This document shows positions 5,714 to 49,526 of a DNA stretch of 64,000 bases, in pieces. The position numbers and the translations under genes are program-made. Within the stretch, counting starts at the first letter, position 1, and each line of letters starts with the position of its first letter. The notes under the pieces are model-generated. The model made no database searches. It saw only the letters and a program-made list of their open reading frames with translations, and was not told the origin of the DNA. The stretch spans positions 158,501-222,500 of the forward strand of contig NW_027506894.1 of NCBI RefSeq assembly GCF_052324685.1. The letters run 5' to 3'. This stretch comes from Brachyhypopomus gauderio (Eukaryota > Chordata > Actinopteri > Gymnotiformes > Hypopomidae).

Positions 5714-6054
5714 TGTCACGGTGACAGCTCCGGACCCTTCCCTGTGGGCGTGTCATGACGTCGTCTGCGTGCTGTTATGTCCATGTTTGTACTTCCGTGG
5801 GTGTGGGTTGTTTGTGAGCGTGTTCGTTTGTTACACCTGTGCCTTGTCTCGAGGTCACATGGGTCTGTGTAACTCACCTATTTAATGTGCGTTCGCGCAG
5901 TGTCGTGTGCTCGTCTTTGTCTAAGTTTCATGCCAGTGTGAGTGTCACATTGTTGTGCTTGCGCCTCCGCAGTGAAGCTGCGTCTTTATTGTCAAGTAAA
6001 ATTCGTGTTTGCACCTATCTGCTACGTGTCGTGTCCGTTCCTCCGCACGTCACA
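5714..6054 (+). repeat. 5' LTR of copy 1
   Basis: 341 bp, TG...CA ends. A TATA-like TATTTAA lies at 5879-5885. Exactly 30 nt after its first T begins GCTCGTCTTT (5909-5918), complementary to the sequence just inside the LTR, marking the likely transcription start and U3/R border. Confidence 0.95.
5879..5885 (+). promoter_or_regulatory. TATA-like box of copy 1
   Basis: TATTTAA inside a block conserved with copy 2; the surrounding 49 bp differ at four positions. The 30-nt distance to the complementary R segment is the same in both elements. Confidence 0.65.
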
Positions 6055-6055
6055 G

Positions 6056-6065
6056 AAAGACGAGC
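6056..6065 (+). other. putative self-priming primer-binding site, copy 1
   Basis: AAAGACGAGC begins one nucleotide after the LTR end and is perfectly complementary over 10 nt to GCTCGTCTTT at 5909-5918. No TGG start, which a tRNA 3'-CCA primer would require, is present at the LTR edge. In copy 2 the site is AACGACGAGC and its partner GCTCGTCGTT, so the single difference is compensated. Folding of the mRNA 5' end onto this site is known for the Tf1/sushi group; that it happens here is inference. Confidence 0.75.
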
Positions 6066-6080
6066 CAAAGATAAAGAGGT

Positions 6081-7490
6081 ATGCCTGGATACGCCACCCG
6101 GGCGCCTAAAGGGAAGAGAAAGAGCCGTCGCCACCACGGCTCTTCCCCGGTCCGTCACCACGAAGCCCCTGTCTCCGAGCAGGAGATGATGAGGAACCCG
6201 TTGTGCGCGTACATGCTCTGCGCAGCTCGGGAAGCGGAGGACGCGGAGATGGCAGAACACCTACGTCAATCCGCGGTCCGCATGTGGAGGGACCAGGACC
6301 TCGCCGCGTCCCTAGAGCCCCCGCACCGGGTGGTGAGAGGCGGCAGGAACAAACCCCCGCACGCGTCTTCTCCCGTGCCAGTGCCCGAGAGCGCAGAGCA
6401 GGGAGAGGATAGCGCACTGCTCTCGGTCTTCCCCGAGGAAGAAGAGACCGATGAGCCGTTTTGGGTGGGCATGGGCGCCTTTTCCCTCACCCCTCCCGAG
6501 GAGGAGGAGTCCTATCCCCCCTCAATCTGTTCGAAGAGCACGGTGGATTACGGAGGTGAGGAAGACAGTCTCCCACCGTCGGAGGGCGAGACGGAGGGGA
6601 CGGACTCCGAGGAGGAGGAGTATTCCCCGTCAGTGTGCTCACGGAGCACGGTCTGCTACGGGGAGGAAGACGTCAGTGCTCCGCCATCTGAGAGTGAGGC
6701 GACAGAGGTGGACTCAGAGGCAGAGGGGTACTCCCCGTCGGTTTGCTCGGAGAGCACCATTCGCTACGGGGGGGATGACGTCAGTCCCCTTCCCTCCGAC
6801 TACGGCGAGGAGAGCGAGGGGGAGAGCCCTCCGTCGGTGTGTTCGCTCCCGACAGTATACAAGGGAGGCGGGAGCGGACCGGACAGTTCGATCGCATCGG
6901 AGAGTGGGGATTCCTGCGAGGAGGAGCCCATGGAACACTCCCGATGCGAGACCCCCGCTCGGTCCATGGACTGGAGCGTGGCCGAGGAGGAGGAGCCGGA
7001 GATGGACACCACCCCCGATACCGGCTCCAGAGGGGGCTGGCCTGGCAACGGAGGGGGCCGCGGACCCAGGGGGTGGGTCGCCGCGAGCCCCACCGGTTTC
7101 GCTGCATCCAAACGGGCCGCAAGTCACGCTGCACCTCGAGCGCCCGCCAGAGGGACTGCCCCAAAGCGGTCGACCAGTCGCGCTCCACCCAGCGCGTCCG
7201 CTGGCCGTGCGGCACCTGGCGGTGAGCAGGCGCAACAGGCAGGAGGAGCACCGCCTGCTGCAGCGTCTCCAGCCCCCGGAGCCTTCGCGCCGCTACCGGC
7301 GTTGCCTCAGGCGGGAAGCCTGGCTTCGGGGCTGAATGTTTGTGTTCCGGTGTTTCTGTCTGTCCCCTTGTGTCTCCCTAACCCACTGTTCCCTTTTGTG
7401 CCAGTGGTGTTTCATGTTCCAGTGTGTGTGTTTGTCAGCGTGCCATTGTTTAATGTTTTCTCCCCTGTCTTCCCAGGGAGGGTGTGCTAG
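6081..7490 (+). CDS. single ORF of the LTR family, copy 1: acidic repeat protein, function unknown
   Basis: 469 residues from the ATG, which lies 26 nt after the LTR. Layout: a basic start (MPGYATR, then KGKRKSRRHH); a Cys/Trp module (about 36-72) of the form NPxCAYxLCAARE...AExxRxxAVRMW; a long Glu/Ser-rich region (about 110-270) with four degenerate repeats around YSPSVCSxSTVxYGG; a short conserved patch (ETPARSMDWS, about 288-297); an Arg/Ala/Pro-rich basic region (about 315-405); and a hydrophobic Val/Phe/Pro-rich tail ending FSPVFPGRVC. The same order, start and last ten residues occur in the 515-residue protein of copy 2. I recognise no nucleocapsid knuckle, protease DSG or reverse transcriptase motif. 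It could be a highly derived Gag-like packaging protein or a captured host sequence; neither is shown. The frame is intact and GC-rich compared with its surroundings. Confidence 0.8.
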   Translation: MPGYATRAPKGKRKSRRHHGSSPVRHHEAPVSEQEMMRNPLCAYMLCAAREAEDAEMAEHLRQSAVRMWRDQDLAASLEPPHRVVRGGRNKPPHASSPVPVPESAEQGEDSALLSVFPEEEETDEPFWVGMGAFSLTPPEEEESYPPSICSKSTVDYGGEEDSLPPSEGETEGTDSEEEEYSPSVCSRSTVCYGEEDVSAPPSESEATEVDSEAEGYSPSVCSESTIRYGGDDVSPLPSDYGEESEGESPPSVCSLPTVYKGGGSGPDSSIASESGDSCEEEPMEHSRCETPARSMDWSVAEEEEPEMDTTPDTGSRGGWPGNGGGRGPRGWVAASPTGFAASKRAASHAAPRAPARGTAPKRSTSRAPPSASAGRAAPGGEQAQQAGGAPPAAASPAPGAFAPLPALPQAGSLASGLNVCVPVFLSVPLCLPNPLFPFVPVVFHVPVCVFVSVPLFNVFSPVFPGRVC

Positions 7491-7639
7491 AGCTGTTCGC
7501 GGCGGTTCCCGCCGTTGGGGGTGACGGCTCTCGGAGGCTCACGATCCCGGCGGCTCCGAACCTGCCCCGTCGGTGTTGGTTCGGGGCTTCCCGGCTACGC
7601 GGGACGCTCCGGGAGTAGCGAGCCCCTGGCGGAGGGTTC

Positions 7640-7980
7640 TGTCACGGTGACAGCTCCGGACCCTTCCCTGTGGGCGTGTCATGACGTCGTCTGCGTGCTG
7701 TTATGTCCATGTTTGTACTTCCGTGGGTGTGGGTTGTTTGTGAGCGTGTTCGTTTGTTACACCTGTGCCTTGTCTCGAGGTCACATGGGTCTGTGTAACT
7801 CACCTATTTAATGTGCGTTCGCGCAGTGTCGTGTGCTCGTCTTTGTCTAAGTTTCATGCCAGTGTGAGTGTCACATTGTTGTGCTTGCGCCTCCGCAGTG
7901 AAGCTGCGTCTTTATTGTCAAGTAAAATTCGTGTTTGCACCTATCTGCTACGTGTCGTGTCCGTTCCTCCGCACGTCACA
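7640..7980 (+). repeat. 3' LTR of copy 1
   Basis: 341 bp, apparently identical to 5714-6054. Preceded by the purine-rich GGCGGAGGGTTC and followed by the target duplicate TACGG at 7981-7985. Confidence 0.95.
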
Positions 7981-8134
7981 TACGGTAATATTTAAGTCAT
8001 TTGCTTTTTATTTGTTTTTTTAATAGTGATACAATCAACCTGATGATTGATGATGCAGGGGGCACCAACCAAAATCTGGCCTAGGGCACCACATTGGTCA
8101 GGGCGGCTCTGACCACGACCACCACGAACGTCGG

Positions 8135-8330
8135 TATACACGTCTACATGAAATGGCTTCAAATAACGACGATTCTGTGTTGTGTGAGTATTTTCTTACT
8201 ACTGAAAGTACTAAAAAAGTTTTTTCTTATTACTGAAAGTAATTTTGTAATTTTAATTTTACTATGAGTGGGTAAAACGACGCAGGGTTTCAAACCTCCG
8301 TGTTTCGGTTATTCGGTTCGCGTATACCGC
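8135..8330 (+). repeat. dispersed fragment shared with 26102-26225
   Basis: From ATGGCTTCAAATAACGACG onward this segment aligns with 26109 onward, including TGTGAGTATTT, TATTACTGAAAGTAA, TAAAACGACG and CCTCCGTGTTTCGGTT. Both begin with a short frame M-A-S...D-S-x-LCEYFL-x-TES that stops soon after. This may be the 5' coding start of an unidentified repeated element; only the homology is certain. Confidence 0.55.
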
Positions 8331-8354
8331 GTATAGGACCGACTACCATCACGC

Positions 8355-9725
8355 GTGTATTCGCTTAAAATGATGCTACTCCCTAAGTTGTTATACTTAT
8401 TTCAACATGTTCCCATTCTGCTAAATCTATCATTTTTTCGTACTTTAGACGGCATGTTGACTCACTTTATATGGGGTAATAAGCCGGCTCGTCTTCGCAA
8501 ATGCTTTTTACAATTACCGGTGATGGAAGGTGGACTTGCTCTACCTGATTTTAGGCGTTATTATTGGGCATGCAATCTGTTTAAATTGGCATACTGGTCA
8601 AACCAGGGCCCTCTTGAAGGTTCCCCCTCATGGGTGCAATTGGAGATAACTTCTGTGAACTTCTCGCTTCTCTCTTTGCTGTGTGCAGAGCTTCCTTTAA
8701 ACTGCAGGGGTGTCACCAATAACCCAGTTGTGCTGAGTTCTATTAAAATCTGGTCACAGTTTCGGAAACATTACAGCCTTACACAGGGGTCCACCTGTGC
8801 TCCGATACTAAATAATTGTCAGTTCCAACCGTCCCTTACGGACCCTGTTTTTACAGTGTGGCATAACAAGGGCATTACCTCAATAAACCACCTGTATATA
8901 GATGGAGTCTTTGCTACATTTTCAGCCTTAGCACGTACATACAACCTACCGAATAATCACCTTTTCCGTTATTTCCAAATCCGTCACTATGCCACACGTT
9001 CATTTACCCATTTTCCCAGTCGCCCTCCTCGATCCAAAATAGATTCTATCTTGGCAATTGACGTTACAACTAAAGGCCTAATCTCAGTTATTTATAATCA
9101 ACTAGCCCCTACCTCCATGGATTTAACTGAACCGCGCAGGGTGGATTGGGAACGGGGTCTTGCGTGTCCTATATCGGATGGCCAGTGGGCCCAAATCCTC
9201 AGAAACGGCTATAAATCTTCAATATGTGCCAGGCATAAAGTGTTACAGTTTAAAATTATTCACCAACTACACTACACCAATGCTCGACTAGCGAGGATAT
9301 TCCCTACGACATCGGATTCATGCCCCAGATGTCAGCACTCGCCAGCAGATCACCCTCACATGTTCTGGTTTTGCCCTAAATTGTCTTCTTTTTGGACTCA
9401 GGTATTTGGCACCCTGGAGCTAGCCTTCTCCACCTCTCTTCCTCCTAGCCCCTTGGCAGCGGTGTTTGGCATTTCTCCTTTATCCTTTAGGACAACAGCT
9501 CATAAGCAGATCTTAGCATTTACGACTTTATTGGCCCGACGTTGTATCTTACTGAGATGGAAGCACACGCTCCCACCTACACACAATTTTTGGTTGCAAG
9601 AGGTGAACCGCTGTATTTACCTTGAAAGACTGCGTGCTTTGAGAGCAGGTTCTCTCGAGCATTTTCATAAAACTTGGAACAACTTTCTTGCAGTCCTCAG
9701 ACAATACGAACTTTCTCCTGAGTAG
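8355..9725 (+). CDS. L1-type ORF2 C-terminal fragment (partial, 5'-truncated)
   Basis: 456 residues are open to TAG. The start is an arbitrary truncation point: the frame begins at GTG and the protein continues in sense from within the thumb region. Recognisable blocks are KMMLLPKLLYLFQHVPI, the FIWGNKPARLRK...GGLALPDFRRYYWA segment that follows the reverse transcriptase in fish L1 ORF2, and a C-terminal Cys/His cluster CPRCQHSPADHPHMFWFC. The polymerase and endonuclease domains are absent. The uninterrupted frame suggests a fairly young insertion. Confidence 0.8.
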   Translation: MYSLKMMLLPKLLYLFQHVPILLNLSFFRTLDGMLTHFIWGNKPARLRKCFLQLPVMEGGLALPDFRRYYWACNLFKLAYWSNQGPLEGSPSWVQLEITSVNFSLLSLLCAELPLNCRGVTNNPVVLSSIKIWSQFRKHYSLTQGSTCAPILNNCQFQPSLTDPVFTVWHNKGITSINHLYIDGVFATFSALARTYNLPNNHLFRYFQIRHYATRSFTHFPSRPPRSKIDSILAIDVTTKGLISVIYNQLAPTSMDLTEPRRVDWERGLACPISDGQWAQILRNGYKSSICARHKVLQFKIIHQLHYTNARLARIFPTTSDSCPRCQHSPADHPHMFWFCPKLSSFWTQVFGTLELAFSTSLPPSPLAAVFGISPLSFRTTAHKQILAFTTLLARRCILLRWKHTLPPTHNFWLQEVNRCIYLERLRALRAGSLEHFHKTWNNFLAVLRQYELSPE

Positions 9726-9744
9726 GGATTTCTACCTCTTATAA

Positions 9745-9960
9745 AGTATGTGCATATGTGTATACGTATGTGTGTATATGTGTATATATATGTATATGTA
9801 TGTGTGTGTGTATGTATGTATGTATATATATATATATATATATATATCTAATTTAGTTTGTTTGGTTTTTATTATTATTACTATATACCTATTCATTTAC
9901 TTATTTTATTCAAATTTTTATTTATTTATTTTATTTATTTATTTTTATTTATTTTTTATT
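9745..9960. repeat. TG/TA and TTTA simple repeats in the L1 3' region
   Basis: Alternating (TATG)n, (TA)n and (TTTA)n tracts. Confidence 0.85.
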
Positions 9961-10095
9961 TAGTTATTATTGTGTCGGTACACTCTGTTACAGACAAGCT
10001 AATTGCTTTATAATTGCATACTATTTCACCCTTTGTAAATGTGTGCTGGAAAATGAGAAATAAAGATGTATAAAAAAAAAAAATAAAAAAAAAAA

Positions 10096-10424
10096 GCTCT
10101 GTAGGTTTTCAAAGGGACTCAGATAAGGTGAATGTATCAAATTTTTGAAACAGAGCTTAGTTAACCTGCACACTTGTGCCCCTAGACATCAAATGTTTTC
10201 CAAGGATAAACTTTGAGAAGTAATTTCAATATCAATAAATATTTTACCTGCAGAGTTTCAGAATCTAACCAGGTGATAATTCAAAGACTTATCAGTTATA
10301 CCAAATCATGTTAATTATTTCAGTACATAGCCTAAGCACTATAATATTTCTAATGGTATTGGCACAAAATTAACATTGAATAACACTGAATTTTGACTGC
10401 CACTTTTTAACAGGCAGATTCTGC
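10096..10424. other. no recognised feature
   Basis: AT-rich sequence between the L1 tail and a LINE fragment; no coding frame or repeat seen. Confidence 0.3.
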
Positions 10425-10540
10425 TCGTCACTTCTCTGAGTGGCCAATGACCAGATCCTGCAGATTTCTCCTCTGCAACATACGGAGAATACGAACCTTT
10501 CTTTCACAGGAAGCTACCCAGGTTTCTCTATGTGCTTCAT
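10425..10540 (+). mobile_element. LINE ORF2 C-terminal fragment (L2-like)
   Basis: The frame reads SCRFLLCNIRRIRTFLSQEATQV, resembling the segment near the C terminus of fish L2-type ORF2 (xxNIRRIRPFLT...). Only about 40 residues remain. The match is from memory of the family. Confidence 0.4.
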
Positions 10541-10984
10541 TCTCTTTACTATATGTCCAATTGCTTTATTATTATTGCTATGGTAATGCTGCTAAATTGT
10601 GTAATATTCCATCAGCATTTTATTATTAAAGTGAATGGAAGCATATAAGTGAATTCGTCTGCACAACCGTGAGTGCAATAATATTTTAGTCATGTGGAAA
10701 TTAACATTAGTGTAAGTGCTTTAGTGCTTTAAGTGTGTGTACTATATGCATTTATTTTACATTAAGAACAAAACACCTTTTGAAACGGGAGATGTCAGGG
10801 TCAGTATTTTGAGTAGCACACACACTTCCTGTATATGTGTGTGTGAGTGTTTCCAATCATTACCAACACAAGAGACTAAGAGGGTCTTTATTGGCGTTAT
10901 GGGTTTTCATTGACTACAGACAGAGCTTAACTTGGACTGGATCCTGCCATAACTGCTGAACTGAGCATATTCATCGTAATATAT

Positions 10985-11175
10985 AGCTAAACATCTGTTC
11001 TGGCGTCTGAGTGTGAGTACCAGTGAGGAGTTGAGTTGCAGCGTTACCATTTAACATCTGTTCTGGAGTCAGAGCATGAGCACCCATGAGAAGCTGGATG
11101 GCTGCGTTACTGTTTAACAGCTGTTTTGGTGTCCGACTGTAAGCACCCATGATAAGCTGGATGGCTCCGTTAATG
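10985..11175. repeat. ~64-bp minisatellite, three copies
   Basis: Three imperfect tandem copies starting ACATCTGTTCTGGCGTC, ACATCTGTTCTGGAGTC and ACAGCTGTTTTGGTGTC. Each ends with a segment like AGCTGGATGGCTGCGTTAC. Confidence 0.8.
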
Positions 11176-11325
11176 TGTCCACACTACAGCCACACGTGTA
11201 AGAAAGGCCTTCAGGACCGAGCTTGGGACAAAACATCTACTTGTCTAAAACAATCTCATCTGGAACACCACAGTAGGAAGTACTGACTTTCTGGTAGCGC
11301 ATAATATGTTTAGGATACATATACC

Positions 11326-11924
11326 AGTGGAGACCGGGTATGGTTGTAAGATGGGGAGAGTTGTAACACCATCAGTTCCACCGATTATGGATGAGATAGG
11401 AGTCATATGATCATTCCAGTATTTACCCAATTCCTCCCTGATCTCACATGGTGAATATCAAGGCTGTAAACAGGCACATGCAGATTCCATAGAGAAAAAA
11501 ACTGATTTTGAGGTGAGAAAGTACATTTCTGAATCAAGACTATTTTGTTTAGTACTTATACTATTGCAGATAAAACCATATGAATTATATTACATTAAAC
11601 AGTAGTTTCTCAGGTAAATTGTGATGCATTTCCCCTTTGTTAATTTCAAATCACCTTGATAATACAGCTAGTTAAACACTGGCTGACAGGGGTGGATATG
11701 GTTGTAACACAGCTTTAAAACGTGCTACAGCCATCACCTTACATACAACTAAGAAAATTTTCTTAATTTTAATAATTTTACAGAATGCCTAGGCAGTGAA
11801 AAAGAAAGACTGACAGAGGTGTGTCTGCAAATGTTTTAAAAACATCTGATGAGGTCACAAAGAAGGGCAAGTCAGTCAGATCAGTTGTGAAGGCACATGG
11901 TATCTGCCATGTAACACACACACT

Positions 11925-11960
<36 letters not shown>

Positions 11961-12442
11961 CATTTATTATTGGACCTACATGTTCTTTACACAAGTACAT
12001 TGTATTAGTGTTCATTAAGCATAACTATTGTTAAATAAGTTTGTTCTAGTACACTAATTTACACACACACACACACTCCTGAAAACAGAAGGTGTATATG
12101 AGTTATGGTCAGTCACAGAGAGAGAGAGACATTGTTCTGGATTGTTATTTTATTTCAAAAACCTTTTTGAAGCTGCATAGTGTGGCCTCTGTATTTGCCT
12201 CTTTTGTGTAATTGTTACAACTTACCCCAGCATGTGTTACAACCTACCTCGGTAGTGGGGTAACAAAGGAAAACAATGTAATTGACATCAACTTACGAGG
12301 GCTGTGAGATTTGAATTGAGTTTTGAATTGGTGCCATTTGTAGTAAACAAATGTGTGTAGAAACAAATGTTTGAGAACTCTAGCTCAAAAATTCAGTGAG
12401 TTACTGAAGCAAAAAGTGTTACAACCATACCCGGTCTCCCCT
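11326..12442 (+). mobile_element. degenerate DNA transposon with psq-type helix-turn-helix remnant
   Basis: The left end AGTGGAGACCGGGTATGGTTG and the right end (rc AGGGGAGACCGGGTATGGTT) are inverted over about 22 bp with one mismatch. Related GGTTGTAACAC blocks recur inside (near 11365, 11700 and 12215). From 11785 a broken frame reads MPRQ-stop-KRKTDRG, then KGKSVRSVVKAHGICHVT, resembling the N-terminal psq helix-turn-helix of pogo/CENP-B-like transposases. A (GA)n tract (11935-11960) and further decay follow. Superfamily assignment to the pogo branch is tentative. Confidence 0.55.
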
Positions 12443-12738
12443 ACATGGACAACTGGCAACTCACAATATAGAAGAAACATCACACAGCATTTAATAAACG
12501 TTTTAATGTCATCACTGCTCTGTCCGTAGACATTATATCCTTCACTTTCTGATCTGCTTAAATTCATTGGTCAATTTACTACAAATGGAAATAATTAGAA
12601 CCATGAATAAAACATTTCACTTGGAATGTTTCTCTACAAAACAAATTTTCTGTTTTTGAAGACTTGTGCTGTGCAGATGTGTGGTCCCAATAAATGTGTA
12701 TTTCAACAAAAATATTTCCTCGTATCATGCCCTGTGTG

Positions 12739-14457
12739 TATGGGAGGTATTTCCTGCCAATAATAAAACTAAAATGAAAACACTAAAATGAAAATGAAAA
12801 TACCGTTTTGCCATTTCTTTTTCCATACATGTGTGAAAATATTATGACAAAATTAAAAATAAAATGAAATCACTTAATTTGCAATTTAATTTTTCACTCG
12901 AGCACGGGTCATATGTGACAAATATAAAATGAAAATTAAAAAGGAGGATTGGCGCTACCTGCTGGTGATTTTCTTTTTCATTTTCTTTTTCCACTTTTCA
13001 TTTTCGTTTTCAACTTCACCAGCATGCAAATACATGTAAATGAACAGTAGGCGGAGCTACAACTACAGTACCTCCCGTGAAATCCAGAGAGGGCAGCACA
13101 CAGCGACATGGCTGACGTTTTACTAGAAACGGCAAATGAGATTGTGAGGTTGGCGAATTGCCAGATTATATATTGCTTAGATGTGAAGTAATCTTGCAGG
13201 TTAATAGTGTTGTATGTCGGAATATATGTGAAGTGGTAGAACGCTTAGGGTCTGGATCGGGACCATGGAAAACCGCCCAGTGCGAGGTCGGCCTAGGTTG
13301 GACGTTGCCGCAGAGACAACGCTGAAGTTGGTTACTTATTCGCAGTTTCAGATTCGTTTGGCTACTTATTCGCAGCTCCTTATTCGGTTCACGATGCGTG
13401 TTTACTGCGCACTTTGTTTAAAAGAGATAGATTAAACAAACGAGCATAGGAGGCTAGGAGCATACATTAAGAGGTTATTGTTTCCCATACTGATTTTGTG
13501 AATGTAGAAAAAAATATTAAAATATAAGGAAAGCATTCCTTTTTGTAAAATGGTTTATATTTCAAGTCGTTACAATTGTATGTAATTTGTACATGATTAT
13601 GGAATTCGTCAGCATTTCTAACGTAAGGAAACATATTCTTAGATTTGAAAACTAAAAACACATAAATGCTGTTCTAGAACACAAATCAATCGGAAGAAGA
13701 TATACAAGCACACAACATGGTATATTGAGCAGTGAACGAATTTACAGGGGAAGGTTCAGAGGCTTATTGAAGGCCTTATTTATAGTGGACCAGATAAATA
13801 ACAAATGAATCATAAAGAACAGGTCGCTCCCTAAGAGAAACCTGATTTTAGCCTGACCCTACATAATTTTATACCTCAAATCTAACTGGAAACATGGCAT
13901 ATTGAGTAGTTAAGCACACAGGTGAAATGGTTCCAGACCCTAAGCGTTCTACCACTTCACATATATTCCGACATACAACACTATTAACCTGCAAGATTAC
14001 TTCACATCTAAGCAATATATAATCTGGCAATTCGCCAACCTCACAATCTCATTTGCCGTTTCTAGTAAAACGTCAGCCATGTCGCTGTGTGCTGCCCTCT
14101 CTGGATTTCACGGGAGGTACTGTAGTTGTAGCTCCGCCTACTGTTCATTTACATGTATTTGCATGCTGGTGAAGTTGAAAACGAAAATGAAAAGTGGAAA
14201 AAGAAAATGAAAAGTGGAAAATGAAAAAGAAAATCACCAGCAGGTAGCGCCAATCCTCCTTTTTAATTTTCATTTTATATTTGTCACATATGACCCGTGC
14301 TCGAGTGAAAAATTAAATTGCAAATTAAGTGATTTCATTTTATTTTTAATTTTGTCATAATATTTTCACACATGTATGGAAAAAGAAATGGCAAAACGGT
14401 ATTTTCATTTTAGTGTTTTCATTTTAGTTTTATTATTGGCAGGAAATACCTCCCATA
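12739..14457. mobile_element. foldback element with ~520-bp inverted arms
   Basis: Arms at 12740-13256 and 13932-14456 are near-perfect reverse complements with only scattered changes and a small AAAGTGGAAAA(G/A) duplication in the right arm. They surround a 675-bp unique centre. A possible 6-bp duplication TGTGTG lies at 12733-12738 and 14458-14463, but it is simple sequence. Each arm contains the same short frame beginning ATGGCTGACGTTTTACTAGA (MADVLLETANEIVRLAN..., 25 codons). No transposase is present. Confidence 0.8.
13257..13931. other. unique centre of the foldback element
   Basis: Contains GC-richer sequence at 13260-13420 with a twice-occurring GGCTACTTATTCGCAG-like motif, then AT-rich DNA. 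No coding frame is recognised. Confidence 0.4.
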
Positions 14458-16142: not shown

Positions 16143-16213
16143 GAGCAGACCATGTGTTAATCTGGCGTATCAGCATAGTGAAACTAAAAGACGAACATCA
16201 GACAGAGCGCACC

Positions 16214-29549: not shown

Positions 29550-29943
29550 TGTTATGAATTGACCAGGCAGAGAGGGATCCAAATGCGGAAGAACACCGCT
29601 TTTATTGAAATGAGACGCTGGTACAGAAACAGGCAGGGGAATCACGAGTACTAGGATCAGTAACAGCGTTTTCTTGGCGTGGTCAGGAAGGTCCAGGGTC
29701 ATACCGGGGGAGCAGAAGTCAGGAGGTACAGAGGGACTAGGCAGGGGACAAGGTCGGGGACATAAGCGAGGGTCAGAACACAGGAGAGCAGACAGGTAAT
29801 AGAACGGCTTGGTACGCGGCATGAGTCGGCAATACTTCGCGACTGAGACGTGCTGGGGAAGGTGTATAAGTGTGACTGAAAGGGGGCGTGGTAATGAGGG
29901 GCAGGTGAGGCTGGTTAGGGAAGATCAGGTGGCATTCCTTACA
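29550..29943 (-). repeat. 3' LTR of the gypsy element
   Basis: 394 bp; the minus strand begins TGTAAGGAATGCCACCTGAT and ends CAATTCATAACA. A TTATACACC box and CAATAAAAG poly(A) signal are present in the sense strand. The internal side abuts TTTGAGGGGGGGTAC, the polypurine tract. Confidence 0.9.
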
Positions 29944-31688
29944 GTACCCCCCCTCAAAGGAGCGGCACCTGACGCTCTACGACGTGCCGGGGGGCGACCG
30001 CGGCGCCGGGGGGCAGGAAATTTGGGGTGCGTTGCGTGGAAATCAGCGATCATAGTGGGGCAGAGAACATCCCTCGCTGGAATCCAGACCCGTTCCTCGG
30101 GCCCATATTCTTCCCAATCCACCAGATATTGGAGACCACCTCGCCGGCGTCGGGACTCCAAGAGCTCTCGGACGATGTATGCCGGACGACCGTCGATCTC
30201 CAGAGGGTCAGGAGGTTTATCAGACACAGGGGGTACGGTGAACGGGCTGTAGTGAACCGGCTTCAGGAGAGAGACGTGGAAGACAGGGTTTATACGGTTA
30301 TGTGATGGTAAAAGGAGTTTATAGGTAACTGCATTAACTCTGCTGAGGACTTTAAACGGACCAAGTTTTTTGCTCCGTTGCTTTAGGTTGAGATTCTGTG
30401 TCGACAGCCATACTCTCTGTCCTGGGTGGTAAATCAACGCTGGGAGACGACGACGGTTCGCGTTGAGCCTGCGTGTGTGTAGAGCGCGTCGCAAATGTAC
30501 ATGTGCTAGTTCCCAGGTGCGGGCACTGTGTTTAAACCACTCGTCTAGGGCTGGGACATCAGCTGGTGTTTTGTCCCACGGGAAAAACGCAGGTTGGTAA
30601 CCATATACACATTGAAAAGGCGTGAGTTTGGTAGCGGTGTGTACAATAGAATTCCGAGCATACTCTGCCCACGGGAGGTATTTGTGCCAGTCGTGCTGAG
30701 AAACGCAATATTGTCGGAGAAACCTCCCTAACTCCTGATTGTAACGCTCAACCTCTCCGTTAGACTGGGGGTGGTAGCCTGACGTCAGGCTGACAGTAAT
30801 ACCAAGAAGTTTGCAGAATTGTTTCCAAACCCGAGATGTAAACTGCGTGCCCCTATCGGAGACGATTTCTTCGGGCAAGCCATAAATCCGGAATACGTAC
30901 TGGAAGAGGTCAAGAGCTGTCTCCATGGCAGTGGGTAGCTTGGGGTGAGGAATGAGACGGCACATTTTCGAGAACCGATCCACAATTACTGTAACAACAG
31001 TATTCCCTCCAGATGTGGGCAAATCCGTGACGAAGTCGATCGCGAGGTGCGTCCATGGCCGAAGAGGAACAGGTAAGGGAAGGAGTTCTCCTGCTGGTAG
31101 CGTCCGGGGAGTACGTGACTGGGCACAAACGGAACATGCTAGAACATAATCACGAATATCGTCCTCCCAGGATGGCCACCAGTAACGTTGCGAAACGAGA
31201 TGTCGTGTGCGTGTAATACCGGGGTGGCCTGTGCCCGCTGTGTCGTGTGCAAGCTGTAGGATACGCCCCCGAAGGGATACGGGTACGTATTGTTTCCCTT
31301 CCGGGCATTCTACCGGACTGGGATTGTTGCGCAAAGCCTCGTCCAATTCTTTTTGTACGTCCCATCGGATAGCCGCGAAGAAACAGGACTCCGGCAGAAT
31401 ATGTCCAGGTTCGTGGGTTGCTTCGTCCTTTTCGTGGATCCGTGATAGGGCATCGGCTTTGATGTTCTTTGACCCAGGTCTGTAAGAGACAGTGAAACGA
31501 AACCGGGAGAAAAACAGTGCCCATCTGGCTTGTCGTGGGTTCAGGCGTCTGGCTGACTTCAGGTATTCGAGGTTCTTGTGATCTGTATATACAATGAATG
31601 GGTGCTCCGCTCCCTCCAACCAATGACGCCACTGCTCGAGCGCGAGTTTGATGGCCAGGAGTTCCCAATCTCCGACGTCATAGTTCAT
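29925..31688 (-). pseudogene. gypsy pol, second part: RNase H, integrase, chromodomain
   Basis: 587 codons from an internal Met after the break to a stop at the LTR. Visible in order: RNase H end ([11 protein letters not shown]...), the integrase HHCC finger, DDE core blocks ([28 protein letters not shown]) and a C-terminal chromodomain ([15 protein letters not shown]). It is in the same frame as 31722-33422, separated only by one in-frame TGA at 31722-31724. Non-functional because of that stop and the deleted 5' region. Confidence 0.9.
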
Positions 31689-31721
31689 TTCAGCGGTTGT
31701 CAGTTTTTTGGAGAAGTAGGC

Positions 31722-33422
31722 TCAGGGATACAGTTTCGGCGGGTTTTCCTGCCTCTGAGAAAGAACAGCGCCCACTCCCACCTCCGAAGCGTCGACCTCT
31801 ACGATGAACTGGAGTTGGGGGTCAGGAAGGTGCAGTACGGGGGCCGACGTGAATGCCTTCTTAAGGAGTGAGAACGCTCGTTCCTCTTCAGCGGTCCAGG
31901 CGAATTTCCGAGTCCTCCCTCCCTTTAAGAGATTAGTGAGAGGGGTAGCCAACTCACCGAAGCCTCGGATGAAACAGCGACAGAAGTTGGCGAATCCCAG
32001 GAATCGCTGCAGCTCCTTTGTGGAACGAGGGGTCGGCCAGTTCGTGACTGCTTCCACCTTCTGCGTATCCATGGAGATCTGGCCAGGGGACAGCGTACAT
32101 TCCAGAAATGTCACCGAGGAGCGATGAAATTCACACTTCTCCGCCTTCACATAAAGACTATGCTCCCGAAGGCGCTGTAACACAGCAGAGACGTGTTTGA
32201 CGTGTTCCGATACGGACGGGGAGTAAACCAGGATATCATCAATGTAAACGAATACGAAATCATCTATCAGATCACGGAAAATGTCATCCATAAATGCTTG
32301 GAATACGGCGGGACTGTTAGTTAGTCCATATGGCATGACAAGATACTCATAGTGCCCTCTGGCGGTAACAAAGGCAGTTTTCCACTCATCGCCCTCCCGA
32401 ATACGGACCAAGTTGTAAGCGCTGCGTAAATCTAGCTTGGTGAAGATGTTCGCTCCCATCAAGCGCTCTTGCGAAGCAGTGATAAAGGGGAGAGGGTAGG
32501 CATATTTCGATGTGACTGCGTTTAGGGCACGATAGTCTATACAAGGGCGTAATCCCCCATCCTTTTTCTCTACGAAGAAGAAACCAGCAGCAACCGGGGA
32601 GGTGGATGGTCGAATGAACCCCTCCTGCAGAGCCTCGGTGACGTAGGACTCCATCGCCAGATCTTCAGGGCGTGATAGAGGGTAAGGTTTCGTTTTACAA
32701 GGTAAGGGGGCTCCAGGCAGGAGGTCGATTGCGCAATCACAGGGACGATGAGGAGGCAGACAACAGGCACTGTCTTTGTTGAAGACGTCCGCAAATGCAC
32801 GATACTGAGTGGGGATGACGTCAGAGAGAGGTGTGTCTGGGCTTTCCACCGAGGATGACCGGAGTGGTAGGTGAATGCACTTGCTAAGACAACTGTCCTT
32901 CCACCGTACGAGTTCTCGTTTTTTCCAGGAGATTTCAGGGTCGTGCATGGACAGCCATGGAAACCCGAGTATGATGGGGTCTCGGGGCGTGGATATGAGG
33001 AAGAACTCTCTCATTTCACTGTGGAACAGACCTACACGTAGCTCCACGGGGCAGGTACGGAGTGTAATCACACCCTCTCCTATAGGCTGCCCATTCAGTG
33101 AATTTATTCTCAAGGGAGGATCTACAGGTACAGTGGGGAGGTGTAAGTGGTAGGCGAGGTCCTGATCTATGAAATCGCCTGCTGCTCCCGAATCCACTAA
33201 AGCAGACAGGTTTGTATCTATGCCGCCCCAAGATATTAGTACGGGTAAGCTAACTTGACTATATTTTTTTATAGGCAGGAATGGCTGACATGTTAGTGGG
33301 GACCTGCCAAGCTGCACAAACTCGTCTGTCACCTGAAGACTCGGATCACGTACATGGGAAGGTGGCGCACAGGACGCAATGACAGGGATGTCGGTATTAC
33401 TGGAGCGGTAGGTCAATAACAA
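31722..33422 (-). pseudogene. gypsy pol, first part: protease, reverse transcriptase
   Basis: 566 codons ending at TGA (31722-31724). It contains the aspartic protease motif [12 protein letters not shown], the ILGFPWL block, the reverse transcriptase with YIDDILVY and [17 protein letters not shown] thumb sequence, and the start of RNase H ([16 protein letters not shown]). The stop lies in the RNase H domain. Gag lies in another frame just upstream. Confidence 0.9.
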
Positions 33423-33662
33423 TTTGTCAACGCTTGAATGAACTCAGACAAGGTGAGGGCTTCACTTCGGCAAGCGAGTTCAACCTGAATGTCATTTCGC
33501 AGACCACGGCGGAACACTGTTTTCAAGGCCGAGTCACTCCAACCGCTTCCTGTAGCCAGCGTACGAAACTCTCTCGCATACTCGGCAGCACTACGTTGTT
33601 CCTGTTTAATCTCGTAGAGCCGGTCTCCCACATCACGTCCGTCTGCGGGATGATCGAAAACA
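33413..33662 (-). pseudogene. gypsy gag capsid fragment
   Basis: About 80 residues: YEIKQEQRSAAEYAREFRTL and [20 protein letters not shown] are typical of the gag capsid C-terminal region. It ends at a stop at 33413 that overlaps the pol frame. The nucleocapsid knuckle expected between gag and protease is absent, indicating a second deletion. Confidence 0.8.
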
Positions 33663-43578: not shown

Positions 43579-43599
43579 TAACACAGAACTCAACTTTAT

Positions 43600-43907
43600 T
43601 TATAGAGCACTTAAATTATTATTATTTTTTTTTGCCATATTTTGTCAATTGTGATTTTTACACCCCAATCGAAATTTGTCCTCCGCTTTTAACCCATCTG
43701 TGCAGTCAGAACACACACACACACTAGTGATTACTAGGGGGCTGTGGATCACACATGCCCAGAGCGGTGGGCAGCCCTAGCCCGGCGCCCGGGGAGCAGT
43801 TGGGGTTAGGTGCCTTGCTCAAGGGCACCTCAGTCATGGCCTGTCTGGGAATCGAACCCACGACCCTCCGGTCACAAGACCCTAACCGCCAGGCCATGAC
43901 TGCCCCT
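43600..43907 (-). mobile_element. tRNA-derived SINE fused to a U1 copy
   Basis: On the minus strand it begins GGGGCAGTCATGGCCTGGCG with box A (TGGCGGTTAGGG) and box B (GGTTCGATTCC), then TGAGGTGCCCTTGAGCAAGG, CCCCGGGCGCCGGGCTAGGG and a 3' part ending in T/A-rich sequence near 43615. Related to 21078-21280. Its 5' end lies 12 nt from the 3' end of the U1 sequence, across a T11 run. Confidence 0.8.
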
Positions 43908-43919
43908 AAAAAAAAAAAT

Positions 43920-44083
43920 CAGGGGAGAGCGCGAACGCAGTCCCTCACTACCAGAAATTATGCAGTCGAGATTCCCGCATTTGGGGAATTCGCAAGGGTC
44001 AGCACAGCCTGAGTGCAATGGCTGAGCCTCACCTTGGGCGAACCACCTTCCTGATCATGGTCTCACCCCTGCCAGGTAAGTAT
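43920..44083 (-). ncRNA. U1 snRNA copy (probable pseudogene), 164 nt
   Basis: The minus strand begins ATACTTACCTGGCAGGGG, the exact U1 5' end that pairs with splice donors. It continues with ACCATGATCA, GAAGGTGGTT, CCATTGCACTC, CCCCAAATGCGGGAA, CTCGACTGCATAATTT and GACTGCGTTCGCGC, ending CTCCCCTG. The length equals that of vertebrate U1. I count a dozen or so differences from the canonical sequence as remembered, including the Sm site (AATTTCTGG instead of AATTTGTGG), which would weaken Sm core binding. No snRNA 3' box follows; the next sequence is T11 and a SINE. A retro-copied or SINE-interrupted pseudogene is most likely. Confidence 0.85.
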
Positions 44084-44089
44084 TTTAAG

Positions 44090-45579
44090 AACGGCAGTCG
44101 AAACAAAGTGCTGTACATAAGAATAGAACATTAGACATAAAACTAATAATAACAAAAAATGGATAAAACAATATTAACTAAAACAGTAAAAGGAATCAAT
44201 AGAACAAATCAATGAATTAAACTAAAACAGTAAAGTCTCTTGCTGTGTTAAAAGCCAATGAATAAAAGTGGGGTTTAAGATTTGTTTTAGTAACATAATA
44301 CAGGAAGATGATAAATCCTGCACCTAACATCCGGAGTCATGCAACAGGCTTGGCTAGGATGTATTAACCAACAACTGTGATCTATTAATCCTACACAATA
44401 CTACTAAGAAGACAAGATAGATTGCACACACCCTATGCCCACACTAGTTACTTGAACAGAACACAGCAGCAGCTACAATCTGATACTGGCTCGACAAGGA
44501 TCCAGAAGCACAGCGCACTATGTTCATGGTCCATTGCCTCAACTGCCAAGTACTCAGACCACCAAACAAACCTGGACTGACCTTCAAAACAAAGTGACAT
44601 GGACACACACACAATACCTTGTAAGCATTTCATTGGGGTCATCAGGAAGGCACCTCCCTTCGTTGGTGTTTCGATGAATTGAGCCCCCAACACCTCCAGA
44701 AGGCTCATCAGTGGAGTCTGGCGTCCCAGACCCACACCCCTCCAAGCTCACAATGTAGCCCATCACAAAATTACCAACAACCCTGCTACCCGACGGCTAT
44801 CGGAAAAGCCAAGTGACAATCCTACCCATCTCTCAACATCACACACACCCAGTGGCGTGCACACATAGACATCAGGTGGTGCTAAAGCACCACCAACTCT
44901 GCCCTTTATCAACGAAAGTGCCCTTTTGAAACTTCGGGGGTTTTTTTTATTTTATTTTTTAATCATTTTACTGAGGTCGGTTTGAAATGATCTTTTGAAA
45001 ACCTGAGCGATTAAAAACAATGCCCTAAAATGCGCCACCACCTCGCACACACTCGACCTCTCTCTTCCTTTGTCACACCAGATACGCACCTAATAAACTA
45101 GTCGCTCTAGCCCAAATCAATGATAGATAACGTGAGGACGACCACATACAAATAATTAGATAGATAGGTAGAGTTTGCAAATCTATGTGTTAAGCTGAAC
45201 GTTTTCTGTTGTATAGGTTTTGTTAGGCAACATAAATTAACACATTCATTTGTGAAAGAAGAAACTGGAAGTTCCCCATTACCTGTGAAAAATGTCCATC
45301 TGCATTCATGTAATGACAACACTCAGTAGCCTATAACTCCTTCTCCTACTTTACAGTCTTTTTACTGTCTTAATTGTAGGCCTATATTGATTTAAATTTA
45401 AAATTTATTGATTTAAATTGGAAAATATATGCAACAAGGCCTGCAGACAGTGGAGGGTAAACAGAAGTTAACTGAAGGACATGACTGTATATAGTTAATA
45501 TTGGATATGAATTATATCAGTTGGCTGCGTGACTTCTTTCCATTGTAAACTCGCATTTAGAGAATGTTACAAATAAAAG
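44090..45579. other. no recognised gene
   Basis: 44105-44290 has A-rich LINE/SINE-tail-like sequence. 44310-44830 is unique-looking. 44860-45010 (CAGTGGCGTGCACACATAGA, GGTGGTGCTAAAGCACCACC) looks like a hAT end. No coding frame is convincing. Confidence 0.35.
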
Positions 45580-45840
45580 TCAAATTTCATTCAACATGTG
45601 CTTAACCTCAGCCCTTCTTAGCCACACCCACTGACTAGATCTCTCAGCTACCGCTGAGAACTCTTTTACCACTGCTCTCATCACACAGCCTCTAAATCCA
45701 AACTCAGCCAGTAGTCTTGTGGCAGACTTCGCCACGAAACCCCTAGCCCCTACCTCTACAGGTCTAATATGTGCTTGCCAGCCCCGCTCTCTTACCTCAG
45801 CCACCAAATCTGCATACTTCAACCTTTTCCTTTCATATGC
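45580..45840 (-). mobile_element. R2/NeSL-clade LINE C-terminal fragment
   Basis: The minus-strand frame reads KYADLVAEVRERGWQAHIRP, VEVGARGFVAKSATRLLAEF and SSQWVWLRRAEV. This matches the end of the restriction-like-endonuclease region of fish R2/NeSL-type LINEs (...ExGxRGFxxxS...SxWxWxKR...). About 80 residues remain. Confidence 0.6.
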
Positions 45841-45844
45841 TGCA

Positions 45845-47074
45845 TCAACTCCAGGAGCAGCTGATCAGCTGACCTGAGGCACCGAGTGGTGGTGTGGGGA
45901 TGGAGCAGCTCGGCGAGGTAAGGCGGGGCGAGTCCATTTAAAGATTTAAAAACAAATAAAAGAATCTTAAAATGAACTCTAAAATGCCCAGGTAACCAGT
46001 GGAGGGAGGCCAGAATAGGAGTTATGTGCTCTCTCTTGCGTGATCCCGTTAAAAGTCAGGCAGCAGCATTTTGCACTAACTGAAGACGTTTGAGAGAGGA
46101 CTGGCTGACTCCAAAATAAAGTGCGCTACAGTAGTCCAGCCGAGACAAAATGAAGGCATGGATTACTGTTTGAAAGTGCTCGTGCGAAATGATTGTCTTA
46201 ACCTTTGCCAGCAGCCTCAAATGGAAAAAACTGGACTTAACCACTGCACCGATTTGGCGGTCCAATTTAAAATCACTGTCTATTTTAAAACCCAAGTTAG
46301 TGATAGTTTGCTTCACATATAATGTCAGAGGGCCCAAATTAATAGGGGAGGCTTCACTGGAACCACTAGGGCCAAACACCATCACTTCTGTTTTCTTTTC
46401 ATTAAAATTTAAGACGTTTAAAGCCATCCAGTCCTTAATACCATTTAGACATAGCAGAAGTGGTTTTATAGAGGTATCTCTCTTTTTAAGTGGGACATAT
46501 ATCTGGGTGTCGTCAGCATAACAATGAAATGAGATGCAGTGTTTCCTGAAAATGGAACCCAGTGGAAGCAGATACAAGGAAAAAAGTAGGGGTCCTAAGA
46601 TAGAGCCCTGTGGAACCTCATATGGCATGGGAGCTGAGGAGGATTTAGAGCCAGCAAAGGTCACACACGAAATTCTGTCTGTCAGATAGGACTTAAACCA
46701 TTCTAGAGCACTACCACAAATCGGGAAACTAAAATTTTGTGATCCACTGTATCAAATGCCGCAGTTAGATCCAGCAGGAGAAGAATCACATGGTCACCAG
46801 AATCATTGGTCAGGAGAATATCATTAAAAACCCTAATCAATGCCGACTCTGTACTGTGCAGGGTTTTAAAACCAGATTGAAAAACCTCCAGGATATTTTG
46901 CTCTTCTTGGAACAAATTTAGCTGAGCATAAACAACTTTTAAATAATAAAAAATAATAAACAATATTTTTGATAGAAAAGGGAGTTTGGAGATATGCCTA
47001 TAATTAGCCAATACAGTTTGGTTAAGGCCAGTTTTCTTGAGCAAAGGTTGCACTACAGCATGTTTACAACTCAC
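45845..47074 (-). pseudogene. L2 LINE reverse transcriptase, C-terminal part
   Basis: Order on the minus strand: [53 protein letters not shown] (first Asp block), a frame change near 46700, [34 protein letters not shown] (catalytic YADD), [20 protein letters not shown], a stop at about 46053, then ITPILASLHWLPGHFRVHFK and PPYLAELLHPHTTTRCLRS. Inactive. Confidence 0.85.
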
Positions 47075-47090
47075 AGGAACAATACCTGAG

Positions 47091-47449
47091 TGTGACGCTC
47101 GGGGCTGGACGAAGGACGAGACACGGATCCCTCTGGCTTGACAGACGTCACTTTTATTTTAGCGCGTAACGCGCACGAAAAACACAGATATAGCGCAATA
47201 GCGCACGTAGACCACTCCGCATACACACACAACGTGTAGACTTAGACAACGACGAGCACAGGACACTGCGCGAGCGCACATTAAATAGACAAACCACATT
47301 AACCCCACATGATTACGAGACGATTCACAGGTGAGATGGATTATCACATGACATAGCCATCACCACGGAATATCCACAGACGCAGACGATGCACGTAGAC
47401 TACGTAAACACATGCCCAAAAGGGAGGGGCCGGGGTCCTCAACGTGACA
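47091..47449 (-). repeat. 3' LTR of copy 2
   Basis: 359 bp, two differences from the 5' LTR. On its internal side is the sense purine tract CTTGGAGGGGGCGTC. Confidence 0.95.
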
Positions 47450-47591
47450 GACGCCCCCTCCAAGGGCACTACCCGTCCCGGGGTGCCAACAGGACCGAGT
47501 GCCCCGAACCCACGACGATGGGCGGATCTGACGCGCTCAGTCCTGCATCTGGGAGGTGACTGCCCTTGGCGAAGCGTCCATCACGAATCGC

Positions 47592-49139
47592 CTAGCACAC
47601 CCTCCCTGGGAAGACGGGGGAAAAGACGTTAAACACATTAAACGGCACAGGAACAAACACACAAACAGGCACGCTTACACACATCGACACAAACGGGAAA
47701 AGGGGGTTTGGTACACATACGGGCAGACTTACGATTACAGGAACACACACACACGACATTAGCACCAGGCTGCGCGCCAGGAGGAGAGCGATGAGGGGAG
47801 GGAGATCCGGTGCTGCTGACGCTGCGTTGGGCAATCCCCCTCCTGCCTTCGCTGCGAACCCTCCGCTGGGCGCAGCGTGGCGGGCAGACGCGCCAGGTGC
47901 AGCGCGGCGGGCGGACGCGCCAGGTGCAGCGCCGCGGGCGGACGTGTCCGAGGCAGCGTAGCTGGCGGGCTTGCCAGGCGCAGCGTGAGGGAGCTCCTCC
48001 TCACAGTCCATCAGCTCCTCCTCGCCCTCCAGGACCCCTTCCATAGACTTAGCCGGGCTCTCACCCCGGGAATAGTCCATGGGGCTGGCCCTGGAAGGTC
48101 CGGAGGATGCGGTCTCCCCAGGAGTGCCCCTTTCTTTTACAGTTCCCACGGAACACTCGGAGGGAGGCGGACTGCCCTCCTCCTCTGAATAGAGGTCGCT
48201 GTCCGTGCCCTCCTCTTCCTCACCGTCTCCAGCGGGGTAGGCGGAGTACCCGCCGTCGGAGCACTCCTCCCCCTCCTCGACAGTGGGAGAGGACTCTACG
48301 GGCGGAGGGAGATATTCTTCTTCCTCTGACTCCTCCTCCTCCTCACCGTAGTCGTTCACCGACAGGGGGTAGGATTCCTCCCCTTCCCCACCATAGTCAA
48401 TGGTGGAGGCATCGCACAGAGATGGAGGGTAGGCCTCCTCCGCCTCCTCTTGCTCCTCCTCCTCCTCACTGTAGTCGTTCACCGACGGGGGGTAGGATTC
48501 CTCCCCTTCCCCACCATAGTCAACGGTGGAGGCATCATACAGAGAGGGAGGGTAGGCCTCTTCCGCGTCCTCTTGCTCCTCCTCGGAGTCCACCTCCCCA
48601 AACTCGCTCTCTGGGGTGGACTCGGTAGCACCGAAGATGCAGGAGCCCACCCTCAGGGGCGAGAGGACGCGAGATGGAGGGGAGTGTCGCTCCCTCCAAA
48701 TCCGTACCGCGCCCTGGCGGAGGGACTCTGCCAGCTCGGGTTCCCTCTCCTCTAGCCGCCGGGCTGAGGCCAGCTGGAAGGCGCACACAGGGTCCTCCTC
48801 TAGTTGCGCCAGCGTCGGCGGGTTATCCTCCTCTACGAGCACGCCCTCTGGTGGCGACGCCTCGTAGGGCTCTGGGTTACTCACCCGTATGGGTGATCCT
48901 TCCCGGGAAGGAGCTGGGTGCCTCTCTTCCCACACCCGCGCCGCTGTCCGGCGGTACTCCTCCGCCAGCTCAGGTATGGATGTTTCCCGAGCCGCGCACA
49001 GCAGGTACGTGCACTCGGGGTCCTGCATGAGCTGTGCCCGAGTCGGCTGGGCTTTGCGGCGCGGGGGAGAGGAAGAAGAGCGGTGGTGCCGCTTGCTGGG
49101 GCGATCCGCCTTCTTATGCCGGGTGGCGTAGCCTGGCAT
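47592..49139 (-). CDS. single ORF of the LTR family, copy 2: acidic repeat protein, function unknown
   Basis: 515 residues, starting MPGYATR as in copy 1. It has two tandem copies of the Cys/Trp module: DPECTYLLCAARE...AEEYRRTAARVWEERHP (about 39-79) and DPVCAFQLASARR...AESLRQGAVRIWRERH (about 116-157); copy 1 has one. A Glu-rich region (about 180-335) follows with repeats around AYPPSLCDASTIDYGGEGEE, then MDYSRGESPAKSME matching the conserved patch of copy 1, an Ala/Arg-rich region with SARRAAPGASARHAAP, and a hydrophobic tail with NPLFPFV and FSPVFPGRVC. The intact frame in both diverged copies argues that the protein matters for the element. No catalytic retroelement domain is recognised. 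GC-rich relative to neighbours. Confidence 0.8.
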   Translation of the reverse strand: MPGYATRHKKADRPSKRHHRSSSSPPRRKAQPTRAQLMQDPECTYLLCAARETSIPELAEEYRRTAARVWEERHPAPSREGSPIRVSNPEPYEASPPEGVLVEEDNPPTLAQLEEDPVCAFQLASARRLEEREPELAESLRQGAVRIWRERHSPPSRVLSPLRVGSCIFGATESTPESEFGEVDSEEEQEDAEEAYPPSLYDASTVDYGGEGEESYPPSVNDYSEEEEEQEEAEEAYPPSLCDASTIDYGGEGEESYPLSVNDYGEEEEESEEEEYLPPPVESSPTVEEGEECSDGGYSAYPAGDGEEEEGTDSDLYSEEEGSPPPSECSVGTVKERGTPGETASSGPSRASPMDYSRGESPAKSMEGVLEGEEELMDCEEELPHAAPGKPASYAASDTSARGAAPGASARRAAPGASARHAAPSGGFAAKAGGGLPNAASAAPDLPPLIALLLARSLVLMSCVCVPVIVSLPVCVPNPLFPFVSMCVSVPVCVFVPVPFNVFNVFSPVFPGRVC

Positions 49140-49156
49140 GTTGGTGTCTCTTCGAG

Positions 49157-49166
49157 GCTCGTCGTT
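49157..49166 (-). other. putative self-priming primer-binding site, copy 2
   Basis: Sense AACGACGAGC, one nucleotide after the LTR end, perfectly complementary over 10 nt to 49325-49334 of its own LTR. Compared with copy 1, one base is changed on each side of the duplex so that pairing is kept. Confidence 0.75.
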
Positions 49167-49167
49167 C

Positions 49168-49526
49168 TGTGACGCTCGGGGCTGGACGAAGGACGAGACA
49201 CGGATCCCTCTGGCTTGACAGACGTCACTTTTATTTTAGCGCGTAACGCGCACGAAAAACACAGATATAGCGCAATAGCGCACGTAGACCACTCCGCATA
49301 CACACACAACGTGTAGACTTAGACAACGACGAGCACAGGACACTGCGCGAGCGCACATTAAATAGACAAACCACATTAACCCCACGTGATTACGAGACGA
49401 TTCATAGGTGAGATGGATTATCACATGACATAGCCATCACCACGGAATATCCACAGACGCAGACGATGCACGTAGACTACGTAAACACATGCCCAAAAGG
49501 GAGGGGCCGGGGTCCTCAACGTGACA
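49168..49526 (-). repeat. 5' LTR of copy 2
   Basis: Sense strand begins TGTCACGTTGAGG and ends GAGCGTCACA. TATTTAA is at 49358-49364. The R-segment GCTCGTCGTT (49334 down to 49325) starts 30 nt after the box, as in copy 1. Confidence 0.95.

Follow-up and report, generated by a model that had tools for sequence, protein, structure and literature searches.

How can a retrotransposon without a recognised polymerase gene begin reverse transcription? The question is raised by two long terminal repeat (LTR) elements of the electric fish Brachyhypopomus gauderio, found in a stretch of 64,000 nucleotides that we call the window (assembly GCF_052324685.1, contig NW_027506894.1, positions 158,501 to 222,500). 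Element 1 lies on the plus strand (5714-7980, 2267 bp) and element 2 on the minus strand (47091-49526, 2436 bp). Just inside its 5' LTR, each carries a 10-nt site complementary to the presumed 5' end of its own mRNA, as expected of self-priming, a mechanism demonstrated in fission yeast and inferred elsewhere. Sequence comparisons make it very probable that both are non-autonomous, self-primed LTR elements of one large family, probably mobilised by chromoviruses. The mRNA would start at GCTCGTC(T/G)TT and fold back, so that its first 10 nt pair with the site just inside the 5' LTR. A chromovirus reverse transcriptase acting in trans would then cut the mRNA at the pairing, leaving the 10-nt end to serve as primer, as in Tf1.

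A presumed primer and its site in two LTR elements

Both elements are complete insertions with the hallmarks of LTR retrotransposons, namely a pair of TG...CA LTRs, a 5-bp target-site duplication and a polypurine tract, the last recognised by reading. The LTRs of element 1 (5' LTR, 5714-6054; 3' LTR, 7640-7980) are identical at 341 of 341 bases and are flanked by TACGG (left copy 5709-5713, right copy 7981-7985). Those of element 2, on the minus strand (5' LTR, 49168-49526; 3' LTR, 47091-47449), are identical at 357 of 359 bases, and CTCAG flanks both element ends. The presumed polypurine tracts with their spacers were assigned by sequence as GGCGGAGGGTTC in element 1 (7628-7639), where chromovirus tracts were used for comparison, and GGAGGGGGCGTC in element 2 (47450-47461, minus strand). 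Between the two elements the LTRs are widely divergent except for a 49-bp block running from TATTTAA to GTCTAAGT, which is identical at 46 of 49 positions and contains the single compensated difference described below.

At the end of each 5' LTR, CACA is followed by one spacer G and then by the 10-nt site, AAAGACGAGC in element 1 (6056-6065) and AACGACGAGC in element 2 (49157-49166, minus strand). The exact complements of these sites, GCTCGTCTTT (5909-5918) and GCTCGTCGTT (49334-49325), both start 30 nt past the first T of a TATTTAA box (5879-5885 in element 1; 49358-49364, minus strand, in element 2), and from this spacing they are presumed to mark the mRNA 5' ends. One base differs between the two primers, and the site carries the matching difference. 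These 10-nt runs are the longest complements that start no more than 5 nt from the LTR edge. A preliminary description of the window had reported the two copies with their coordinates, the 10-nt complements, the 30-nt spacing and the compensated base, and direct reading found it right to the base.

To judge how often such a match arises by chance, the LTR or the downstream sequence was shuffled with dinucleotides preserved, and only complements beginning no more than 5 nt from the LTR edge were counted. With the partner allowed at any place in the LTR, runs of 10 nt or more were obtained in 40, 85, 166, and 199 of 20,000 shuffles, depending on the element and the side shuffled. When the complement additionally had to start 25-35 nt after the TATA box, 50,000 shuffles per copy gave 2 cases for copy 1 and 23 for copy 2. 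This rarity bears on priming by a tRNA or an internal part of a tRNA, with the self-complementarity coincidental or serving another role. Most LTR elements other than self-primed ones use tRNAs, which counts in favour of this alternative. Yet reading from the LTR edge to the start codon found no TGG, the complement of the tRNA CCA, in either element, bearing out the preliminary description on this point, and the exact match is preserved in both of its states over hundreds of pattern matches in the genome. We regard tRNA priming as extremely improbable.

In the predicted leader fold, primer and site pair with mean probabilities of 0.925 and 0.975 in the two elements, and RNAalifold applied to 25 leaders recovers the primer/site helix together with a short U5 stem beside the site. 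A regulatory leader hairpin, acting in translation or packaging rather than as a primer, would close the leader in the same way, and the U5 stem alongside is compatible with it. A primer site would account for the position at the LTR end, the sharp stop of the pairing at 10 nt and the recurrence of the layout in chromovirus copies (see below), whereas a hairpin needs no such place, and we consider a purely regulatory role very improbable.

A reverse transcriptase fragment (RVT_1) at 46056-46751 on the minus strand adjoins element 2, which may sit within a non-LTR element.

Covariation of primer and site across the genome

Searches covered the host assembly of 796.5 Mb. A first collection combined fetched regions with the results of two element searches, in which 40 of 3327 and 40 of 3757 candidates were scored, and gave 85 junction rows at 76 distinct places. 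Primer and site were perfectly paired at 72 of these, 41 with T in the primer and A in the site and 31 with G and C; four had one mismatch and none was crossed, that is, none joined the primer of one state to the site of the other. Three of the four mismatched junctions belong to near-identical copies on three contigs in which a CpG of the 5' LTR primer has changed from C to T, and the 3' LTR of one of these copies (L038) retains the matching primer. In the fourth, a CpG of the site itself has changed. Five of the 87 loci first collected (L027, L083, L084, L085, and L087) gave no junction, and L084 seems to have lost part of its site through a small deletion. A third LTR type, type C, is closer to element 2 and yet has the T primer; six of its 20 fetched LTR places were 5' junctions, five of them perfect and one with two mismatches. 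Type C LTRs recur on single contigs (C74, C94, C104, C105, C207, C262, and C326), about 9.6-12 kb apart in three cases and at greater distances in the others, as though large repeated arrays contained a copy.

Gapped patterns were then matched against the whole genome, with a spacing from primer to CACAG of 124-154 nt for the T primer and 128-158 nt for the G primer. There were 276 T/A matches (control 0) and 589 G/C matches (control 0), compared with no G primer joined to an A site and two T primers joined to a C site. The 867 matches, counted as pattern hits, thus divide into 865 matched and two crossed; by the limits on spacing they omit longer leaders such as that of L086, and they also omit mismatched copies. 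The two crossed junctions (G000:C1:29192863 and G000:C5:18577646) may represent decay or intermediates of a switch. Counted pair by pair over 25 leaders, 99.6% of cells were paired, and the covariation score was 0.134 against a shuffled mean of 0.052, with none of 500 shuffles reaching it; slid versions of the pairing never reached 0.134, the best being 0.038.

Two candidates for a third pairing state were rejected. Reading of six genome matches to CACAGAAGGACGAGC placed none of them within an element LTR. Five copies with AATGACGAGC were read from the first 100 places listed; three carry the primer GCTCGTCGTT and therefore look like CpG decay of the site, and two had no primer in the fetched stretch.

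How often the pair has switched was examined with a maximum-likelihood tree of 47 LTR-leader sequences from which primer and site had been removed. On it the G state falls within the T state, and the G clade in turn encloses two T copies (L146 and L147). The starred branches force at least two changes, where shuffled labels need about 15. A single origin of the G rows was rejected (63.6 log-likelihood units worse; approximately unbiased test, p-AU 3.6e-5), in a test that presupposes a group named beforehand, which is true of the primer state and false of the choice of rows. The 47 rows were hand-picked, partly for resembling the other state, and the bootstrap had not settled. On this tree, primer and site appear to have changed jointly on two or more occasions, provided that recombination did not move both. 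The covariation among genomic copies that the preliminary description had proposed as a test of self-priming is therefore present, in the pattern counts as in the number of switches.

The preliminary description went further and held that selection has kept the pairing, which is not shown by these data. In HIV and SIV (human and simian immunodeficiency viruses), the primer-binding site of the progeny is described as inherited from either the primer or the genome (PMC4549124, in the part available). The 5' end of a self-primed element would itself be the primer, and a change in it would be transferred to the site during a later cycle; because the site is rewritten in this way, covariation is expected even without selection on the pairing. 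Two matched states, hardly any crossed copies, and repeated switches are what such copying predicts. One could instead suppose that, within self-priming, each side mutated independently and selection was the main force preserving the pairing, with no transfer of primer sequence to the site. The two or more switches in which both sides changed are compatible with this, and the two crossed junctions could be its intermediates. Nevertheless, copying from primer to site is on record for the lentiviruses just cited and follows from the self-priming scheme, and it predicts few crossed copies without any selection. Our data do not distinguish the two; we consider maintenance mainly by selection unlikely. 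The matched changes are best explained by primer sequence copied into the site during replication, to which selection may add.

Chromoviruses, coding capacity and related elements

Chromovirus-like elements are common in this genome, as judged by SH3_Tf2-1 domain matches, for which 150 of 1765 candidates were scored. Nine copies with open frames longer than 1100 aa, presumed autonomous, were tried; they were chosen for frame length and not as distinct families, and by eye several share LTR types. All six copies for which both LTRs were captured have AATACTTCGC 1-2 nt after the CA end of the LTR, and this sequence complements GCGAAGTATT, located some 30 nt downstream of a TATA-like box, which reads TATTTAA in half of the six. 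These junctions were read from a printout, with one LTR end mutated and the BLAST edge placed within 3 nt. The other three copies had no LTR pair in the fetched pieces, and the 3' LTRs of two of them (L110 and L118) likewise read GCGAAGTATT.

The chromoviruses thus resemble elements 1 and 2 in the spacing from TATA box and LTR end, in the LTR termini, and in the polypurine tract, and share with them the 10 pairs and the C after the site. The tract and termini read GGAGGGGGGGTAC followed by TGTCAGG, and CGTTACA, in the chromoviruses, and GGAGGGGGCGTC followed by TGTCACG, and CGTCACA, in element 2. They differ in their long open frames with the SH3_Tf2-1 domain, in their primer sequence, and in the body of the LTR. 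The family of elements 1 and 2 therefore uses the chromovirus layout with another primer sequence. A comparison with sushi-type elements of the same genome had been suggested at the outset, and its outcome, together with the genome-wide covariation, leaves the proposal of self-priming well supported. Our confidence is slightly lowered because the six chromovirus copies may represent fewer than six separate families.

Each element has one open reading frame (ORF) with a basic start, acidic repeats, and a hydrophobic end. The acidic product of element 1 (6081-7490, stop included; 469 aa; computed isoelectric point 4.59) has a relative in that of element 2 (47592-49139, minus strand; 515 aa). A Pfam search of both ORFs at E 0.1 matched no family, including gag, reverse transcriptase, integrase, and chromodomain; a PDB profile search with the ORF gave no match at E 1, and a scan of viral contigs with the LTR block gave none. 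The AlphaFold model of the ORF is mostly of low confidence (mean predicted local distance difference test score 53.7), with confident parts mainly at residues ~31-70 (helices) and 421-450 (two strands), and a hidden gag fold is possible. Protein searches with one ORF sequence and with one alignment, which scored only the candidates sharing most words and could miss relatives elsewhere, found 12 and 10 proteins, and a search with the C-terminal 60 residues found four; all are from Brachyhypopomus gauderio. Non-synonymous divergence between the two copies (dN) is 0.56 and synonymous divergence (dS) 1.51, and over the final 59 codons the first, second, and third positions carry 18, 9, and 29 changes, respectively. 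These values suggest that the ORF codes for a protein under constraint, as read from one sequence pair with dS above 1, near saturation, and with three bases beyond the stop included in the slice of ORF 2. In element 2 a 140-bp stretch of the ORF occurs twice at 93% identity (48322-48584, minus strand), so the acidic region may vary in repeat number. A host gene model, P0004, fuses immunoglobulin-type domains with the element ORF, through exon capture or as an annotation artefact.

Non-autonomous LTR elements often are deletion derivatives of autonomous ones. The two copies might accordingly be recent derivatives of an autonomous element sharing their LTRs rather than members of a long-lived family, and the likeness of their termini and polypurine tract to those of chromoviruses would suit such an origin. 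Set against this are an ORF without a Pfam match in which non-synonymous changes are the fewer, the 12 annotated host proteins that match it, and the lack of any donor seen, though none was systematically sought. Recent derivation by deletion therefore seems rather unlikely. No pol is seen in the elements of this family, and they therefore need a helper, for which the chromoviruses would be the natural candidate.

Several observations weigh against this interpretation or limit it. The two crossed junctions and the mismatched copies mean that pairing is not absolute. Within the family, both sides have changed in only one of the 10 pairs, and two of five pair measures (both-side-changed pairs and further pair types) do not exceed shuffles. 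Leaders with shuffled middles reach the predicted primer pairing of 0.925 and 0.975 in 36 of 100 and 12 of 100 cases, respectively. The two extra duplexes of the Tf1 pretzel are no better here than in shuffles, of which 176, 247, 255, and 242 of 500 score as well. An autonomous element bearing the GCTCGTC primer did not turn up, no search having been aimed at one, and for this reason we infer the helper's identity. The support as a whole comes from sequence comparison.

How do these elements compare with known ones? Self-priming is shared by Tf1/sushi elements, and the Tf1 leader forms three duplexes, as described in an excerpt of PMC10085805. Elements 1 and 2 resemble this group (Tf1, Tf2, Tj1, Tosmo, and sushi-ichi) in having a site complementary to the presumed mRNA 5' end and adjoining the 5' LTR; Tj1 is described as having a site complementary to its mRNA 5' end and, as here, a 5-bp target-site duplication (PMC4600332, in part). 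They differ in having no recognised gag, reverse transcriptase, integrase, or chromodomain, and the flanking duplexes of the pretzel do not stand out from shuffles. In the Tf1/sushi group the primer is released by RNase H cleavage behind the paired bases, and a similar release would be predicted here. Members of that group have a reverse transcriptase and integrase of the chromovirus clade together with a chromodomain, which neither ORF shows by Pfam at E 0.1; because this defining pol is absent, we do not file the elements as members of the Tf1/sushi group, only as working like them. The self-primer pairing of Tf1 is 11 nt long, compared with 10 nt here. Among plant Tcn1 elements, self-priming is called likely in the portion available of PMC6317226, and for one Tcn1 element the corresponding portion of PMC2864245 gives evidence for neither tRNA priming nor self-priming.

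LARD and TR-GAG are classes of non-autonomous LTR elements. Together with TRIM they have in common with elements 1 and 2 the LTRs, a priming site, a polypurine tract, and the absence of pol. Elements 1 and 2 differ in their size of 2.3-2.4 kb, in an ORF without a recognised gag domain, and in having a self-primer and not a tRNA site. Specifically, TRIMs are below 1 kb with a tRNA-type site (definition as excerpted from PMC6934838), whereas these elements measure 2267 and 2436 bp and have no TGG at the LTR edge; a TR-GAG would have a gag domain in its ORF, and no Pfam family is matched. Bivalve TRIMs are likewise non-autonomous LTR elements of animals without a clear tRNA site; in the part available of PMC6934838, their authors mention self-priming as known elsewhere and could propose no clear priming mechanism. 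Elements 1 and 2 differ from them in having a paired, covarying primer. Self-priming is strongly supported for this family, which we see as a variant of a known mechanism that is non-autonomous and bears an ORF.

The window also contains a broken chromovirus (29550-33443, minus strand). An in-frame stop splits its pol between two RNase H pieces, and there is a chromodomain match. Its 3' LTR (29550-29943) holds the other self-primer, GCGAAGTATT, at 29840-29831. By reading, gag-like sequence follows a truncated 5' LTR; the truncation has removed the priming site, and no AATACTTCGC site is present on the minus strand of the window.

The base after the site and what it may record

The base directly 3' of the site is C in element 1 (6066), the commonest base there genome-wide, and C in element 2 (49156, minus strand). 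It is C in all 57 distinct leaders of types A and B, in all six type C junctions, and in all six chromovirus copies, and the second base after the site is mixed (G in 27, A in 18, C in eight, and T in four of the 57). Among genome-wide pattern matches, C follows the site in 1173 of 1232 (control 1) and another base in 59 (control 0); counted from the listed places, the exceptions are 49 T, eight A, and two G, and six of them (AAGG) are not elements. For chromoviruses, 191 of 195 pattern matches have C at this position. Exceptions were among the rows chosen for the tree set, where three of 47 carry a different base. Immediately ahead of the primer, all 57 leaders have T, and the six chromovirus copies have C or T, so the C after the site pairs with no encoded transcript base.

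Reverse transcriptases of the Moloney murine leukaemia virus type appear to template one C from the m7G cap (PMC6885630, in part). A plus strand copying a capped primer to its end would add one C exactly after the site. The site may then be a written record of the last replication, in which the capped self-primer was copied back, including one C templated by the cap. We hold this reading tentatively, as possible but less likely than not. It would explain both the near-perfect covariation (two of 867 crossed) and the unpaired C. The C may also owe its conservation to common ancestry or to some other contact with RNA. Three element-2-like copies, L138, L139, and L140, have G, G, and A in its place and are exceptions to the cap reading. 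A literature search found no paper linking cap and self-primer, and we do not put the idea forward as unpublished; PMC4668388, by its title, deals with the role in reverse transcription of the G at the 5' end of HIV-1 RNA.

A vertebrate genome with 865 perfectly matched pattern matches in pol-less elements, and with chromoviruses that use another primer, is itself a test of the mechanism. The family also suggests that self-priming can sustain an element that carries an ORF but lacks pol. Were the site rewritten from the primer, the pairing would be inherited by copying and not by selection on it. The conserved C gives a simple prediction on whether the cap is copied as well; if it is, the mRNA cap would have left a fossil in the elements' DNA.

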